Assembly: GCA_946902875.1 (NCBI GenBank)
Contig: OX336340.1
Coordinates: 5,415,739-5,479,738 of the forward strand
Source: Nematopogon swammerdamellus
Taxonomy: Eukaryota > Arthropoda > Insecta > Lepidoptera > Adelidae
Reading direction: 5' to 3'
DNA length: 64,000 nucleotides
This document shows positions 7,860 through 61,861 of this stretch, one piece after another. Below the pieces are notes generated by a model. That model was not told the origin of the DNA. It ran no database searches and worked only from the letters and a program-made list of their open reading frames with translations. Made by a program: the position numbers and the translations under genes. Each line of letters starts with the position of its first letter. The first letter of the stretch is position 1.

Positions 7860-8305
7860 CGATTCGCGATGAAAAGATGAAACGGATTTAACAATATTTA
7901 ACCCTTCTTTACATCAAGGGAATAATATAACTTTCTCTTAAATGAACAAAGGCAACGCCCCTTTCACAATTTTGCGAATTTGCAGATTTTCGCATAAACA
8001 CGATAATAGTTCTAAGTTCTGAGATACCTCGGATACTTTATTATAAATCTACATCAACTTTCCAAAACAATGATATGTAAGACCTCGTACATTGGTATTA
8101 TCTTATTGGAGTATTAGTTATTGGAATTTTCCAAAATTAAAAAAATAATGTTAGAAAGTCGAAAAGTTTTGTAACCAAAAAAAAAATTATTATATTATTA
8201 ACAACTATTTGCTAATTACTTAGCCAACGATATGACAAATTATATTGCAATATGACTTCGCGAAAAATTCGCGAAAATCTACCCTACCATAAAAAATTTA
8301 TGAGT
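7860..8305. other. No recognised feature
   Basis: A/T-rich sequence, nothing recognised. Confidence 0.3.
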
Positions 8306-8463
8306 ACCCACCTCGATATTTAATTTTTTTACGGTAAAATGAGGTTTTCCAGGCTTTGCCTTTTTTAACAAACTAACCAGCCATACCCACCTGGATATTT
8401 AATTTTTTTAGGGTAAAATGAGGTTTTCCAGGCTTTGCCTTTTTTAACAAACTAACCAGCCAT
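8306..8463. repeat. 79-bp tandem duplication
   Basis: Two adjacent copies (8306-8384, 8385-8463) sharing TGAGGTTTTCCAGGCTTTGC and ending AACTAACCAGCCAT. They differ at only a few bases, so the duplication is young. Confidence 0.85.
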
Positions 8464-8780: not shown

Positions 8781-9312
8781 TCGAGAGATGGTCGCGCAAC
8801 AGATGGATAGATCTCACCGAGACCTAAAGTTTGAGTACCAACACGATGGATCTAGCACCAGTGGTTCTCGAGTTATGACCAAAACAAAAGTTCATGTGAC
8901 AGATGGATAGATCTCACCGAGACCTGAAGTTTGAGTACCAACACGATGGGTCTAGCACCAGTGGTTCTCGAGTTATGACCAAAACAAAAGTTCATGTGAC
9001 AGATGGATAGATCTCACCGAGACCTAAAGTTTGAGTACCAACACGATGGATCTAGCACCAGTGGTTCTCCAGTTATGACCAAAACAAAAGTTCATGTGAC
9101 AGATGGATAGATCTCACCGAGACCTGAAGTTTGAGTACCAACACGATGGGTCTAGCACCAGTGGTTCTCGAGTTATGACCAAAACAATAGTTAATGTGAC
9201 AGATGGATAGATCTCATCGAGACGTTCAGATTGAGTACCAACACGATGGGTCTAAGTCCAGTGGTTCTGTAGATATGACCAAAACTAATGATCACGTGAC
9301 AGATGATAATTC
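8781..9312. repeat. 100-bp tandem repeat array
   Basis: The motif AGATGGATAGATCTCACCGA recurs at 8801, 8901, 9001 and 9101, with decayed copies at 9201 and 9301. The period is exactly 100 bp. Odd and even copies share private variants (CTAAAG with GGATCT, CTGAAG with GGGTCT), so a 200-bp dimer was the later amplification unit. No open frame spans it. Confidence 0.9.
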
Positions 9313-15888: not shown

Positions 15889-17365
15889 GTTTATTGTTTA
15901 TTGTTTATTTAGCATCTATTGGCAGTACACTGCGCTCAGATTTGTCATATTTACATTGTAACATTCCGCCAGTTCGATTATCACAGCGAAGAAGAACTGA
16001 CAAGAAACTTCACTGGAAATTTTTCAATGTCCACTTAGTCTATACAAAAATGTTTGCCACTGCCTAGACACGCATGTGCTGATTTGTGACATGCAGCAAT
16101 TCATGACAAAGTGAAAACATTTTTACTATGAAATTGTATGGACTACTGGTTTCTGTCACAAACCACCACATGTCGTTATCACATAATTAATTAATTACAT
16201 TCATATGGCATCATTAATTATATTTATTTATCATGTGATTCTGACAACTTCTAAAGTATATAAGTATTATGTAAAAAGTCCGGTGTATAGTGCCATCGTC
16301 AAATTTGATAAGAAATTTTATCAAGTCATTATTTGATTTTGTTAGTAAGCAAGTAACATACTACAATGTAGTATAAAATGTCGAGGGTAAAAAAAAAAAA
16401 AAAAAATAGATACACAAGTACCCATTGTCTTAGAGTTAGTAGAGAACATTACGTTATGTCATACTTTTGTACTTAATTTATTATGTCAGAATCACAAAAT
16501 TCGTCAGTTAAGGCATCTTTAATACTGTAATAGCTTTTTTTGGTTAATATTTTTTTCAGGGTTATTTTGAAAGAATTTTCACCTAGATTCCTTATTTCCT
16601 GTGGTATTTTGTTATAAAGTCTAACACTATTACATATAAAACTTTTTGACATTTTAGACAACCTATGTTTTATTCCCAGTAGGTTATCCTTATGTCTAGT
16701 ATTATAGTTGTGATTGTCCGAGTTAAAAGTGGAGACTAATAGATGGTTTCTTGCATAACAAATGTTTTGAAAGATGTAGGCACCAGGTAAAGTCATTATT
16801 CCTATTTCATTAAATGCATAACGACAAGTGTCTCTAGGTTTCATTCCTAGTATACACCGTAGGGCTCTTTTCTGTAATACAAATATTCGGTTTGATTCCG
16901 CTGCATTTCCCCAAAACATTAAACCATATGACATAAGATTGTCAAAGTAGGCATAGTATACAGTCTTTGCGGCTTGAATGCCGCAGAGCTCTTTAATTTT
17001 TTTTATAGCGTAGCAGGCTGAGCTTAGTTTGCCTGCTAGTTTATCTATATGAGCCTTCCAGGTTAAGCCATTATCAAATATTAAGCCCAGAAATGTAATT
17101 TCATTAGCTATTTTGAGGGATAATTCATTTACAGTGTTCACAATGTCATCTTGTATGCGTTTCCGAGTACCCAATGCGAAGTGCATTACATTAGTCTTAT
17201 TTACATTCAATAGTAAATTATTAGATTGAAACCATGACTGTAGTAAATTTATTACTATTACAAATGACTTCCGTAGTTCCTCCATACATAAATCTTTCAA
17301 GACAACAGATATATCATCAGCAAACATGACTAATTCTATGTCCTCTGGAACACAGCTAACGTCAC
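15889..17365 (-). mobile_element. 5'-truncated non-LTR retrotransposon (LINE), minus strand
   Basis: Contains the RT fragment at 16473-17327, a 3' UTR, and a tail that reads on the minus strand as (AATAAAC)n at about 15889-15915. A related tail and UTR (ATTCCGCCAGTTC, GCGAAGAAGAACTGACAA) recur at 43564-43750, which supports the 3' boundary. The 5' end at about 17365 is abrupt, as expected of incomplete target-primed reverse transcription. Confidence 0.7.
16473..17327 (-). CDS. LINE reverse transcriptase, C-terminal half (partial)
   Basis: A 284-residue intact frame starting MFADDISVVL. FADD is the catalytic YXDD-type motif of the RT palm (two metal-binding Asp at residues 4-5). TNVMHFALG and EITFLGLIFD (residues about 45-85) fit the RT segments after the catalytic loop, and the rest matches the thumb/C-terminal region of Jockey/CR1-like ORF2 proteins (SYGLMFWGNA, LQKRALRCILGM, SVRLYNKIPQEIRNL). 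The frame continues upstream a few codons to about 17353 before the element is cut off, so the endonuclease and RT fingers are absent and the copy cannot move by itself. No stop codons or frameshifts over 850 bp suggest a fairly young insertion. Confidence 0.85.
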   Translation of the reverse strand: MFADDISVVLKDLCMEELRKSFVIVINLLQSWFQSNNLLLNVNKTNVMHFALGTRKRIQDDIVNTVNELSLKIANEITFLGLIFDNGLTWKAHIDKLAGKLSSACYAIKKIKELCGIQAAKTVYYAYFDNLMSYGLMFWGNAAESNRIFVLQKRALRCILGMKPRDTCRYAFNEIGIMTLPGAYIFQNICYARNHLLVSTFNSDNHNYNTRHKDNLLGIKHRLSKMSKSFICNSVRLYNKIPQEIRNLGENSFKITLKKILTKKSYYSIKDALTDEFCDSDIIN

Positions 17366-17714
17366 GATAACGTCATAAAGAAACACAGCTATAAGAATTA
17401 CTGTATTTTTTCGTACGGCACCCCTATCGCTGCCGTACGCCGTACATTTGTCGATTTCTAGCCTCGATTACCGTACGATACGGCAATTACCGTACGTTTG
17501 GCAACACTGCCGCTTGGGCCGATTGTGCCTCTCTATCGCTTGTTACGCGCTCTCGCTTGCACATAAATGCTCAGATGGAACGTGACACTTTTTCGTGCGT
17601 GCAGCCGGTGTTCATCAATTTATAAGACGATAACGTCATAAAAAATATAAAACATACCTTCTCACATGTTGTTGACATTGGGCTTTTTAGAACCCATCGG
17701 TTCTCAAAATCATT
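17366..17714. other. No gene; direct repeat CGATAACGTCATAAA at both sides
   Basis: GATAACGTCATAAA occurs at about 17367 and again at about 17628, enclosing a segment rich in CGTACGG words. This may be an old insertion with a long duplication, but no terminal repeats were found. Confidence 0.3.
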
Positions 17715-20489: not shown

Positions 20490-20917
20490 GCTCCCACCCA
20501 CTCATATGACCTTCCATACGAAGAAACTCCCTCACTCATCTAACCTTCCATACGAAGGTGCTCACTCACTCATATGACGTTCCATACGAAGAAGCTGCCT
20601 CACTCATGAGCTTCCATACGAAGAAGGTGCTCACTCACTCATAGGACCTTCTATACGAAGAAGCTCCCTCACTCATATAACCTTCCATACGAAGGTGCTC
20701 ACTCACTCATGACGTTCCATACGAAGAAGCTGCCTCACTCATGAGCTTCCATACGAAGAAGGTGCTCACTCACTCGTAGGACCTTCTATACGAAGAAGCT
20801 CCCTCACTCATATAACCTTCCATACGAAGGTGCTCACTCACTCATGAATGACGTTCCATACGAAGAAGCTGCCTCACTCATGAGCTTCCATACGAAGAAG
20901 GTGCTCCCTCACTCATG
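20490..20917. repeat. Minisatellite (TTCCATACGAAGAAGGTGCTC units), left part
   Basis: Units of about 30-37 bp alternating CACTCATATGACCTTCCATA and GAGCTTCCATACGAAGAAGG. A four-unit higher-order block recurs with GACGTTCC at 20576, 20711 and 20850 (about 135-139 bp). Open frames along it arise from the repeat. Confidence 0.85.
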
Positions 20918-21363: not shown

Positions 21364-21612
21364 TATATATTCCATACGAAGAAGGTGCTTCCTCACTCAT
21401 ATGACCTTCTATACGAAGAAGCTCTCTCACTCATATAACCTTCCATACGAAGGTGCTCACACACTCATGACGTTCCATACGAAGAAGCTGCCTCACTCAT
21501 CATGAGCTTCCATACGAAGAAGGTGCTCTCTCACTCATATGTCCTTCCATACGAAGGTACTCACTCACTCATACGACCTTCCATACGAAGGTGGTCCCTC
21601 AATCATATAACC
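21364..21612. repeat. Minisatellite, right part
   Basis: Continuation of the 20490 array (TTCCATACGAAGAAGGTGCT, TATAACCTTCCATACGAAGG), ending near 21610. Confidence 0.85.
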
Positions 21613-23576: not shown

Positions 23577-23608
23577 AATAGATAGGTATGCAATAGTTCG
23601 AACACCTA

Positions 23609-23784
23609 GAGAATTTTCTAGCCTCGTTCCAGTATTAGAAAGTATTAGAATTTCCTTTACTAAAATCTTAAACCCGGGGGGAGGGGGCGAGGGTTAGAGA
23701 ATTTTCTAGCCTCGTTCCAGTATTAGAAAGTATTAGAATTTCCTTTACTAAAATCTTAAACCCGGGGGAAGGGGGCGAGGGTTT
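23609..23784. repeat. 88-bp tandem duplication
   Basis: GAGAATTTTCTAGCCTCGTT starts at 23609 and 23697. The copies differ only near the CCCGGGGG segment. Confidence 0.85.
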
Positions 23785-49160: not shown

Positions 49161-49322
49161 CCTTTTTCCTCTTGTCGACAGAGATGGGCTGGCCGTCTTC
49201 CCTCCGCCACATGATCTTGGGCGCTGGGAAGCCGTCCGCCTTGCACACCAGGCTTATGTTCTGGTTCTCCCGCACCGCCACCGCCGACTGCGTGCTCTCG
49301 TTGTCGAGAATGTTCGGCGGCA
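49161..49322 (-). CDS. DPR-interacting protein (DIP)-like gene, exon with first half of Ig domain 2
   Basis: Minus-strand exon of 162 bp between a TTCGCAG acceptor and a GG|GTGAGT donor. It encodes PPNILDNESTQSAVAVREN..., with the Ig Cys at residue 26 (SLVC), the core Trp at 38 (IMWRRED) and a KRKK end. These are hallmarks of Ig2 of the neuronal DIP/lachesin family: Ig-domain cell-surface proteins that bind Dpr partners and steer synaptic matching. NES (residues 7-9) and NIS (21-23) are possible N-glycosylation sites. The exon begins and ends in phase 1: the upstream exon's final G completes GTG (Val, giving VVVPPNI), and the last G suits the GTN Val that follows KKK in relatives. Wording is closest to the DIP-eta/epsilon/zeta group. 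The next exon, with the second Ig2 Cys, was not found to the left. Confidence 0.9.
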
Positions 49323-51241: not shown

Positions 51242-51974
51242 ACAAATAGTGAACACGATGTACTCACCGAACTAAATGCTAGAAGCGCCATAACGCGATG
51301 AAACTTGTTAAGAAATGTGCGTGCCTTCACATGGAATTGTCAATATGAATACTTTCAGACGATCTCATTACAAGCCATATCATGCTATGAATGCGTTAAG
51401 GCTCCTCACTCGCGTATTTGCGGACATAAAAAAAAACTCAAAATTTTATTTATTATTATTTTTGAGACACTTTACACAATCAGAAATTGTCCCTATTTCA
51501 TAACAAACTAATTGGCAATGATTATTCTGTTTTGTGTGCAAACACCATCTCCCAAACTGGCCTAACCGGCTGTATCATGAGAGACAGTGGGTGCATACAA
51601 TACCTATAACACTTGACCAAGCTACTCAACATCACAGCCCAGGAATATGTCAGGAATAAATAGTACCTACATATTACAGTGCTATATATATATATATCAC
51701 TTTTTGTAACACCTTAAAACATGAGAGAATTATTAAACACGAGATTAAACATGAGAGATATTGAGAGAACATGAGAGAAGACGATAAGGTGCGCCATATA
51801 ACGCAAGCGTCAATCATTGTGAAATAAGCTTATAAGCTGATTTGGTCGGTGGCATATTCTTTCGGGAGCGATGTATGAGATAGATTTTATATTTTGAGGC
51901 CATACAATTTCACTTTTCATGTAGGGAGGAATATGTTTGCCTAGAACAAAAGTGGTACATAACTACCTGCATAT
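51242..51974. other. No recognised feature (DIP intron)
   Basis: ATATATATATAT at 51683 and ACATGAGAGA words (51720-51780). The frames at 51305-51511 have no domain. Confidence 0.3.
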
Positions 51975-52175: not shown

Positions 52176-52861
52176 TTCAGTGGACCTAATTTGACAATTT
52201 AAACTTTTCGAAATATTTCAAATAGAACGTTTAACACGAAAAAGTGAAAGTCACATAAAAAAACCCCTTCGCTGCCCATACAAGTCATCAACTCCCCTCA
52301 AAACCAACACGGCTTCGGAGAGCCTAGCGGTGTCCCTAGCGCCATCTGTGTATAATTTTATAATACGCTCGTGTCCCAGTTTCGTGGACGTTGGTGGATG
52401 GCACAGATTTAGGAGTGCGCTACAGTAATTAATGATCCGCGTCCAGCGGACCCTTCAACTTGACGGCCATGAAGTAGCGTTTGCGATACAGCCTACAGTA
52501 CCGGTTGGGGAGATGCAGTGAATTTTAAAAGAACTGTGAGCTCTTTTAGGATCAGCAACATATAATATGTTTAGGTTTTATTTGTTTAATAATTTTAAGT
52601 ATGTGGCTTCGTTTTGGTTTCTCGTTTCATATACGTAATTAAAATAACATTCGTTTTTTCGTTTATCCTGTATATCAATTTTTAGCTGTTAGCCTGCTGT
52701 CTCTGTGGTTTTTCTGTCTATCGCAGCCTTATAGGGATTTTATACAGGACGATGAGATATAGCTAGTAGTGTATCAAATCTATGCTGTTCAAATTTGTGT
52801 GTATTGATAGGACACTAGATATAATTTCACCAAATCACGAATTTTGCATTTTCGGTAGCAC
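52176..52861. other. No recognised feature (DIP intron)
   Basis: Nothing recognised. Confidence 0.3.
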
Positions 52862-54681
52862 ATCACGGCGTTGTCGCCGCAAGCTGCAGATATACAGGTA
52901 CTCACCGATAACCTGCAGATAGCCGACCTGGCTGATCATGGGGTTGGTGTTGACCTGGGACATGTACTAGCTGCGGTCCTCCTGCTACACTCGGCTCACG
53001 TGCAGGAGACGCGTCACGTTGTCGCCGCACGGTGCAGGTATACAAGTACTCACCGACGACCTGCAGGTAGCCGACCTGGCTGATCATGGGGTTGGTGTTG
53101 ACCTGGCACATGTACTAGCTGCGGTCCTCCTGCTACACTCGGCTCACGTGCAGGAGACGCGTCACGTTGTCGCCGCACGGTGCAGGTATACAAGTACTCA
53201 CCGACGACCTGCAGGTAGCCGACCTGGCTGATCATGGGGTTGGTGTTGACCTGGCACATGTACTAGCTGCGGTCCTCCTGCTACACTCGGCTCACGTGCA
53301 GGAGACGCGTCACGTTGTCGCCGCACGGTGCAGGTATACAAGTACTCACCGACGACCTGCAGGTAGCCGACCTGGCTGATCATGGGGTTGGTGTTGACCT
53401 GGGACATGTACTAGCTGCGGTCCTCCTGCTACACTCGGCTCACGTGCAGGAGACGCGTCACGTTGTCGCCGCACGGTGCAGGTATACAAGTACTCACCGA
53501 CGACCTGCAGGTAGCCGACCTGGCTGATCATGGGGTTGGTGTTGACCTGGCACATGTACTAGCTGCGGTCCTCCTGCTACACTCGGCTCACGTGCAGGAG
53601 ACGCGTCACGTTGTCGCCGCACGGTGCAGGTATACAAGTACTCACCGACGACCTGCATGTAGCCGACCTGGCTGATCATGGGGTTGGTGTTGACCTGGCA
53701 CATGTACTAGCTGCGGTCCTCCTGCTACACTCGGCTCACGTGCAGGAGATGCGTCACGTTGTCGCCGCACGGTGCAGGTATACAAGTACTCACCGACGAC
53801 CTGCAGGTAGCCGACCTGGCTGATCATGGGGTTGGTGTTGACCTGGCACATGTACTAGCTGCGGTCCTCCTGCTACACTCGGCTCACGTGCAGGAGACGC
53901 GTCACGTTGTCGCCGCACGGTGCAGGTATACAAGTACTCACCGACGACCTGCAGGTAGCCGACCTGGCTGATCATGGGGTTGGTGTTGACCTGGCACATG
54001 TACTAGCTGCGGTCCTCCTGCTACACTCGGCTCACGTGCAGGAGACGCGTCACGTTGTCGCCGCACGGTGCAGGTATACAAGTACTCACCGACGACCTGC
54101 ATGTAGCCGACCTGGCTGATCATGGGGTTGGTGTTGACCTGGCACATGTACTAGCTGCGGTCCTCCTGCTACACTCGGCTCACGTGCAGGAGATGCGTCA
54201 CGTTGTCGCCGCACGGTGCAGGTATACAAGTACTCACCGACGACCTGCAGGTAGCCGACCTGGCTGATCATGGGGTTGGTGTTGACCTGGCACATGTACT
54301 AGCTGCGGTCCTCCTGCTACACTCGGCTCACGTGCAGGAGACGCGTCACGTTGTCGCCGCACGGTGCAGGTATACAAGTACTCACCGACGACCTGCAGGT
54401 AGCCGACCTGGCTGATCATGGGGTTGGTGTTGACCTGGCACATGTACTAGCTGCGGTCCTCCTGCTACACTCGGCTCACGTGCAGGAGACGCGTCACGTT
54501 GTCGCCGCACGGTGCAGGTATACAAGTACTCACCGACGACCTGCAGGTAGCCGACCTGGCTGATCATGGGGTTGGTGTTGACCTGGCACATGTACTAGCT
54601 GCGGTCCTCCTGCTACACTCGGCTCACGTGCAGGAGACGCGTCACGTTGTCGCCGCACGGTGCAGGTATACAAGTACTCAC
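52862..54681 (-). repeat. 148-bp tandem array of a DIP exon end plus its 5' splice site (about 12 copies)
   Basis: On the minus strand each 148-bp unit consists of about 119 bp matching the last part of the exon at 54682-54889 (from CGACAACG to GTCGTCG), then a GTGAGTACTTGT donor and about 29 bp of intron start. Copies step at exactly 148 bp (for example 53019, 53167, 53315 and on to 54499). All share two changes that create TAG codons in the Ig frame (Gln to stop, Tyr to stop) and a 3-base deletion. One mutated copy was therefore amplified. The leftmost copy (52862-53018) is the most diverged. No polypyrimidine/acceptor lies in the unit, so the copies are not ordinary cassette exons. Confidence 0.9.
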
Positions 54682-54889
54682 CGACGACCTGCAGGTAGCC
54701 GACCTGGCTGATCATGGGGTTGGTGTTGACCTGGCACATGTAGTAGCCGCGGTCCTCCTGCTGCACTTGGCTCACGTGCAGGAGCCACGTCATGGCGTTG
54801 TCGTGGGAGACGCTGAAGCGAGCCAGCCTCGATATCACGTGTCGGTGGATGGTGAGGATCATCTGTCGGTCTATGTGGATCCACGCCAC
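54682..54889 (-). CDS. DPR-interacting protein (DIP)-like gene, exon with second half of Ig domain 1
   Basis: Minus-strand exon of 208 bp between a TTTGTTCCAG acceptor and a CG|GTGAGT donor (exon ends at 54682). The 69 codons start VAWIHIDRQM (core Trp at residue 3). They continue through ILTIHRHVIS and TWLLHVSQVQQ to DRGYYMC (Ig Cys at 52), NTNPMISQVGYLQVV. This is the strand C to G part of the first Ig domain of DIP proteins, where the Dpr-binding face lies, and it is very close to the DIP-eta/epsilon/zeta wording. It starts in phase 0 and ends in phase 1, matching the exon at 49161. Reading past the donor would add about 50 residues from the first array copy and stop at 54530. Upstream exons (signal peptide, first Ig1 Cys) were not found to the right. 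Confidence 0.92.
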
Positions 54890-61468: not shown

Positions 61469-61861
61469 AAAACCGACTTCTTAAAAAAAGTAAAACTAAA
61501 AAACTATTTAAAATAAAAATATAAAAACCGCCTTCAAAAATATATGAAATAAAAACCTAAAAAAAAAAACCAACCCTAGAGTTGAAGGCGGTGCTAAAGC
61601 AAGCAAAAATGATGCATGAAAGAAAACATGAGTGGATGATAATATCCTTTGTGATTTGTAAAGCAAGCAAAAATGATGCATGAAAGAAAACATGAGTGGA
61701 TGATAATATCCTTTGTGATTTGTGTAGCCTTTTTAGCACCGCCTTCAACTCTAGGGTTGGTTTTTTTTTTTAGGTTTTTATTTCATATATTTTTGAAGGC
61801 GGTTTTTATATTTTTATTTTAAATAGTTTTTTAGTTTTACTTTTTTTAAGAAGTCGGTTTT
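61469..61861. repeat. ~390-bp near-perfect palindrome with duplicated loop
   Basis: Arms 61469-61598 and 61732-61861 are near-exact inverted repeats (AACCGACTTCTTAAAAAAAG against CTTTTTTTAAGAAGTCGGTT, and CCCTAGAGTTGAAGGCGGTG against CACCGCCTTCAACTCTAGGG). The loop holds two 64-bp direct copies (AAGCAAGCAAAAATGATGCA at about 61597 and 61661). Frames inside are palindrome artefacts. Confidence 0.9.

Follow-up and report, generated by a model that had tools for sequence, protein, structure and literature searches.

Twelve tandem units of 148 bp lie directly behind a coding exon of a predicted DIP-delta orthologue in the moth Nematopogon swammerdamellus, each of them repeating the end of the exon, its 5' splice site, and the start of the intron. 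The array is likely to be a 'mirage', a minisatellite across an exon–intron boundary that is removed with the intron and is neutral; it is probably harmless to the gene. The anatomy of the array, its divergence from the exon, the reading frames, the homogeneity of the units, and the divergence at the edge of the cluster are read directly in the window (the whole stretch of DNA analysed, 64 kb). The features of the locus are listed below; a slash marks an exon–intron boundary.

54682..54889, minus strand: real coding exon, 208 nt, second half of Ig1 of the predicted DIP-delta orthologue; begins in phase 0 and ends in phase 1
54680..54681, minus strand: authentic 5' splice site, TCG/GTGAGTAC; U1 duplex of -10.8 kcal/mol, the same value as for the 12 array donors
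52907..54682, minus strand: array of 12 tandem 148-bp units (GGTGAGT ... GTCGTC), starting directly behind the exon
54533, 54385, 54237, 54089, 53941, 53793, 53645, 53497, 53349, 53201, 53053, 52905, minus strand: first GT base of each of the 12 extra donors, all TCG/GTGAGTAC
52906-~52859, minus strand: relic at the distal end, a partial copy; a diverged donor flank (34/38 to the first 38 bases of the unit), then CGACAACGCCGTGATGTG
49161..49322, minus strand: next exon, start of Ig2 (VPPNILDNESTQ...), 162 nt; acceptor TTCGCAG/TG, phase 1

Host gene and exon structure

The 208-nt exon at the end of Ig1 is preceded by the acceptor TTCCAG, adjoining position 54889, and followed by a donor GT from position 54681. 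Its product, VAWIHIDRQM...SQVGYLQVV, joins in frame (phase 1) to that of the exon starting at 49322, the position that a sequence-only reading of this DNA had named as the next acceptor, and 124 residues are joined in this way. The best match of the joined residues in the PDB is DIP theta (E 1.1e-41), followed by eta, alpha, CG32791 (which we take to be DIP-alpha), and gamma; to judge from these five best PDB matches, the Ig1–Ig2 sequence is nearest to the Dpr-interacting proteins. The nine best public protein matches, all from Lepidoptera with 95-98% identity, are unnamed or called lachesin or lachesin-like, and the name dpr-interacting protein delta stands on four other insect records (P0028, P0049, P0078, and P0095). 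Taken together, the PDB matches and the names of the protein records identify the host gene, on sequence grounds, as a DIP-delta ('lachesin-like') orthologue.

The exon borders are backed by odd records. Unrelated residues are inserted immediately before VAW in P0006, and the reading continues directly after VV in P0118 (another DIP), which backs the exon end. No convincing further exon of the gene was found in the window by tblastn with DIP fragments.

The window protein differs from the nine best lepidopteran records at two sites. It reads VISRL at 54830-54832, where the records read VITRL; S at this site is common, occurring in 67 of the 120 listed homologues. In the exon at 49161-49322 it reads LDNES, compared with LDEES in eight of the nine records and LDEKS in one.

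Structure of the array

Tandem Repeats Finder reports the array at 52869-54792, with a period of 148, 13.0 copies (the exon end included), 98% matches, and 0% indels. Its score of 3715 is the highest of the 35 rows in the window, the runner-up reaching 860. Cutting the sequence at GGTGAGTAC yields 13 donors at an exact spacing of 148 bases, corresponding to the real donor and 12 others. Coincidence is no concern with a repeat of this kind. The sequence-only reading had counted about 12 copies of a 148-bp unit behind the real exon, with ~119 bp taken from the exon end and ~29 bp from the intron, and both the count and the composition are borne out by the donor spacing and by alignment to the exon. 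Each unit opens with the final base of the exon, continues with 29 bp of intron starting GTGAGTACTTG, and closes with 118 bp aligned to the exon end. It thus ends in a copy of the exon end, which is followed by the next donor, and the first base of the array, 54682, doubles as the last base of the exon. The array is one of partial rather than whole exons, as had been proposed.

The unit and the exon end are identical in 112 of 121 aligned columns, and three of the remaining nine are a gap. The GC content of the unit is 60%, GC-rich like the exon, compared with 39% in the rest of the intron. Elsewhere in the 64-kb window, outside 52861-54889, the unit has chance-level matches only (E 1.1 and 3.7). 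A 26-base pattern from the unit has 0 matches in viral contigs, a set that is uninformative on moth genomes, and no inverted repeats of at least 20 bases occur at 50-58 kb.

At the distal end, the relic follows the undeleted form of the exon, CGACAACGCC, after its donor flank. An 18-nt stretch of it equals the exon at 16 positions; of up to 2000 random 47-mers drawn from the window, 0 scored as high (those within 52.7-55.0 kb were skipped).

Tandem Repeats Finder places other tandem arrays with a period of at least 64 bp at six places in the same 64 kb (8305-8463, 8799-9305, 20495-20917, 21370-21612, 23607-23783, and 61595-61723; with periods from 64 to 135 bp and roughly 2 to 5 copies each), indicating that such duplications are common here and that the overlap of one of them with an exon edge needs no special cause. 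Two of the six also resolve into 34-bp units.

Divergence and homogenisation of the units

Compared with the real exon, the unit carries six substitutions and a 3-nt deletion. The substitutions fall in five codons, all of which are altered, two of them to TAG, and both in-frame TAGs are present in 12 of the 12 units. The exon itself keeps the residues of eight lepidopteran orthologues (the stretch DNAMTWLLHVSQVQQEDRGYYMCQVNTNPMISQVGYLQVV is intact in it, as in 8/8 of those read), so the differences would have arisen in the array. All six substitutions lie within the 5' 58 of the 118 aligned sites, and no difference occurs in the final 60 bases or in the donor; under uniform placement, such clustering has p 0.012 in a one-sided comparison chosen post hoc. 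This uneven distribution may point to a recent exchange of sequence between the array and the end of the coding exon.

The units barely differ from each other. Eight of the 12 are identical to the consensus, the array comprises four distinct sequences in all, and the mean pairwise difference is 0.95%. Two variants are common to units 4 and 7, and one is common to units 9 and 12. Mismatch is at its minimum at a shift of three units (0.60%, compared with 0.86-1.06% at shifts of 1, 2, 4, 5, and 6), a figure that reflects few variants. The distal unit has the most changes (four), and the relic beyond it has diverged further. Homogeneous units with a diverged distal edge are best described as a minisatellite in concerted evolution, a pattern that unequal exchange usually leaves. 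Slippage or unequal exchange had already been suggested by the sequence-only reading, and either would fit the homogenised units, the variants common to units three apart, and the diverged distal end.

The following course of events is consistent with these observations. A segment of ~150 bp, comprising the Ig1 exon's end and the adjoining start of the intron, would have been duplicated in tandem. The downstream copy, freed of coding constraint, would have acquired the 3-nt deletion, the two stops, and the other replacements, and unequal exchange or slippage would have amplified it to 12 units, perhaps partly in steps of three units, as the few variants suggest. The final 60 nt of the real exon may also be subject to homogenisation.

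The array has four features of a mirage. The unit lies across an exon–intron boundary, its length of 148 bp is inside the cited range of 10-160 bp, GTGAGT follows 12 of the 12 unit ends, and concerted evolution inside the cluster is accompanied by an edge that is not homogenised, as in the amphioxus globin gene BflGb6.

The identity of eight of the 12 units would also be expected if mis-assembly had multiplied one or two genomic copies, and an amphioxus mirage was apparently assembled aberrantly in a draft genome (PMC3087553, in excerpt). However, the unit variants, the divergent distal unit, and the older relic, which differs in its deletion state, make up a graded series that is unexpected from multiplied reads. 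An assembly artefact is unlikely, although the copy number of the array may be off.

Splice donors and predicted transcripts

All 13 donors read TCG/GTGAGTAC. Their predicted U1 pairing is equal, at -10.8 kcal/mol, and by this measure they make up 13 of the top 14 among the 395 GT sites from the start of the exon to the next acceptor. The Ig2 exon's own donor is slightly stronger (-11.5). A donor-like TCG/GTGAGTAC at 51267 on the minus strand has 11 bases the same as the array donors and ties for the strongest U1 pairing. This site was considered as a relative of the unit and rejected as a coincidence, as it sits in dispersed repeat-derived sequence unrelated to the unit.

None of the 12 extra donors gives the normal protein when joined directly to 49322, because the first shifts the frame by one and the other 11 include a TGA. 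Read-through past the real donor is open across the first unit and is halted by the TGA in the GTGAGT of the second donor. Among five candidates found by shared words, no public protein matches the read-through peptide at E<=1.

Exon definition provides a basis for the donor nearest the acceptor to win. On the mirage reading, the authentic donor, which is nearest the acceptor, would normally set the 208-nt exon, and the whole array would be removed as part of the intron. A later donor, if used directly, would lead to a frameshift or a premature stop, and nonsense-mediated decay of the transcript would be expected. The sequence-only reading had placed a dozen competing donors behind one acceptor. 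The 12 extra donors are indeed there, but competition among them finds less favour, since their direct use brings a frameshift or a stop and since splicing over amphioxus mirages is described as undisturbed (PMC3087553 and PMC3902484, in excerpt). A tension with the use of the authentic donor arises from splicing factors: according to PMC5585400, SRSF1 favours intron-proximal 5' splice sites and hnRNP A1 intron-distal ones, and the intron-proximal donors here are the far, damaging ones.

Protein records cannot reveal an intronic array, but duplicated Ig1 ends were looked for in them by counting the Ig1-end motif. Among the 120 listed homologues (of 773 matches), the motif occurs once in 117 and twice in P0026 and P0118, and it is unmatched in P0059. 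Of the 120, P0118 alone continues beyond LQVVG, and the residues that follow there are other ones.

P0118 (Anopheles quadriannulatus) and P0026 (Heliothis virescens) are predicted proteins in which the Ig1-end segment is duplicated; in P0118 the sequence runs past the donor position, as LQVVGKYGAM..., and enters the exon a second time. Both come from other DIP genes, as they are at 51% identity. Their duplications may stem from errors in the gene models or assemblies, or other insects may have boundary duplications of a similar kind.

Regulated use of the extra donors

All 12 extra donors have kept their sequence intact and match the authentic donor in U1 pairing, and the frame beyond the real donor runs through a full unit before it meets the stop in the second donor. 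These properties would suit a functional ladder of donors, in which regulated use of the 12 extra sites, through unproductive transcripts or a truncated product with Ig1 only, tunes neuronal DIP-delta. We give this alternative little credence. Recent homogenisation alone explains the identity of the donors, and the array donors are unexceptional because the donor of the Ig2 exon pairs better. The read-through peptide has no counterpart among the candidates examined above, and the unit folds no better than shuffled sequences (z +1.06; 168 of 200 shuffles fold as well).

The strong form of this proposal, in which a 13-rung ladder of identical 5' splice sites tunes or times the output of DIP-delta with copy number as the dial, is very improbable. 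If it were true, the share of transcripts from the later rungs, all 12 of them unproductive if joined directly, would determine the level of an adhesion protein by which synaptic partners are specified. Provided that the array is real, it offers a natural experiment on the choice of 5' splice sites: 13 donors of the same sequence, in nearly equal upstream contexts of 119 nt, differ mainly by their distance from the acceptor.

Duplicated AGGT sites

Three AGGT sites are common to the exon end and the unit, all within the identical 60 nt. Splicing from an AG/GT in the exon to the same AG/GT in a unit, and from the donor of that unit to 49322, would leave the mRNA unchanged and create a silent intron. 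Of the 36 exon–unit combinations, 29 yield exactly the normal mRNA, with the intervening units leaving as a small intron. Intron gain through duplicated AGGT is an established mechanism (PMC3443670, in excerpt), and a related route starting from mirages has been proposed (PMC3087553, likewise in excerpt). Two of the AGs, both CAG, have more upstream pyrimidines than the real Ig2 acceptor by a crude count.

However, the sites are weak as donors: the middle one, CAG/GTCGGCTA, has a U1 duplex of -6.9 kcal/mol compared with -10.8 for the authentic donor. In addition, the sites lack a thymidine-rich tract, the T fraction being <=0.19 for the two CAGs compared with 0.31 and 0.63 at the real acceptors, and such splicing would be invisible in mature mRNA. 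A silent intron of this kind is highly improbable as an account of the array. Were it to occur, units could be excised silently through the duplicated AGGT sites, and an intron would be caught early in its birth, at a stage hidden from mature mRNA.

More generally, acceptors may exist inside the units. Four of the 12 AGs per unit score above the real Ig2 acceptor by upstream pyrimidine content, and none reaches the Ig1 acceptor. This heuristic is crude, since the real Ig2 acceptor scores lower by it than some unit AGs.

Dispersed repeats and alternative exons

Dispersed repeats are present in the flanking introns, and a dispersed satellite or transposable element that resembles or has captured the exon might in principle produce such an array. 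This origin is scarcely plausible: the unit equals the adjoining exon in all but nine columns, is contiguous with it in the same orientation, and includes its donor, and the masked 64-kb window holds no second copy.

At 16473-17372 on the minus strand, the window has an open frame of 299 aa, which by eye presumably resembles part of the reverse transcriptase of a non-LTR retrotransposon.

A Dscam-type array of alternative exons, with each unit a selectable ending of Ig1, would match an Ig-domain gene of neural wiring with tandem copies between constant exons, but can practically be dismissed, as the open frame of every one of the 12 units is broken by two in-frame TAGs, no AG is conspicuous as an acceptor (by the crude heuristic), and units that barely differ would give no diversity.

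Comparison with known systems

The preferred reading, a neutral boundary minisatellite, has its closest precedent in the 'mirages' of amphioxus, tandem repeats over the exon–intron boundaries of Adh3, TnC, and the globin genes BflGb6 and BflGb9, with a similar case in PGBD5. This account of them follows PMC3087553 and PMC3902484 in excerpt. The units of the globin mirages are 150-160 and 157 bp long, and many mirage repeats contain splice signals (both sources). In BflGb6, concerted evolution is combined with cluster edges that are not homogenised, and RT-PCR suggested regular splicing of the globin mirage genes (PMC3087553). The array of N. swammerdamellus probably joins this class. As in amphioxus, minisatellite-like units lie over one exon–intron boundary of an intact gene, and, as in BflGb9, it is the 3' (donor) boundary of the exon that is duplicated. 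In contrast to the amphioxus cases, the host is an insect, and the unit has an intact donor together with two stop codons. The copy number is 12 units in the one sequence analysed, compared with 6 and 3 in two haplotypes of BflGb6. No insect case of a boundary minisatellite was found in the open-licence literature. If the array is real, a little-known class, reported from lancelets and human duplicated genes, would be extended to an insect neural adhesion gene.

Minisatellite expansion at an exon–intron boundary also changes gene structure in human genes of segmental duplications (De Grassi & Ciccarelli 2009, PMC2812944, in excerpt). The human repeats average 30 bp in four copies, occur in recent paralogues, and are reported with new introns, whereas the present units are 148 bp in 12 copies and a new intron is not part of the case. 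Intron gain by tandem genomic duplication (PMC3443670) is similar in that an exonic segment with AGGT is duplicated, here with three such sites per unit. It differs in that the unit here also covers an existing donor and in that the AGGT sites are weak donors.

The Dscam arrays (PMC1397879, in excerpt) are likewise tandem and likewise found in an insect neural gene of the Ig superfamily. Each Dscam variant has its own donor and acceptor and a sequence that differs from the others, whereas the units here are partial, stop-bearing, and nearly identical. The contrast with Dscam drawn in the sequence-only reading is therefore right, but that reading missed both the closer precedent, the amphioxus mirages, and the duplicated AGGT sites.
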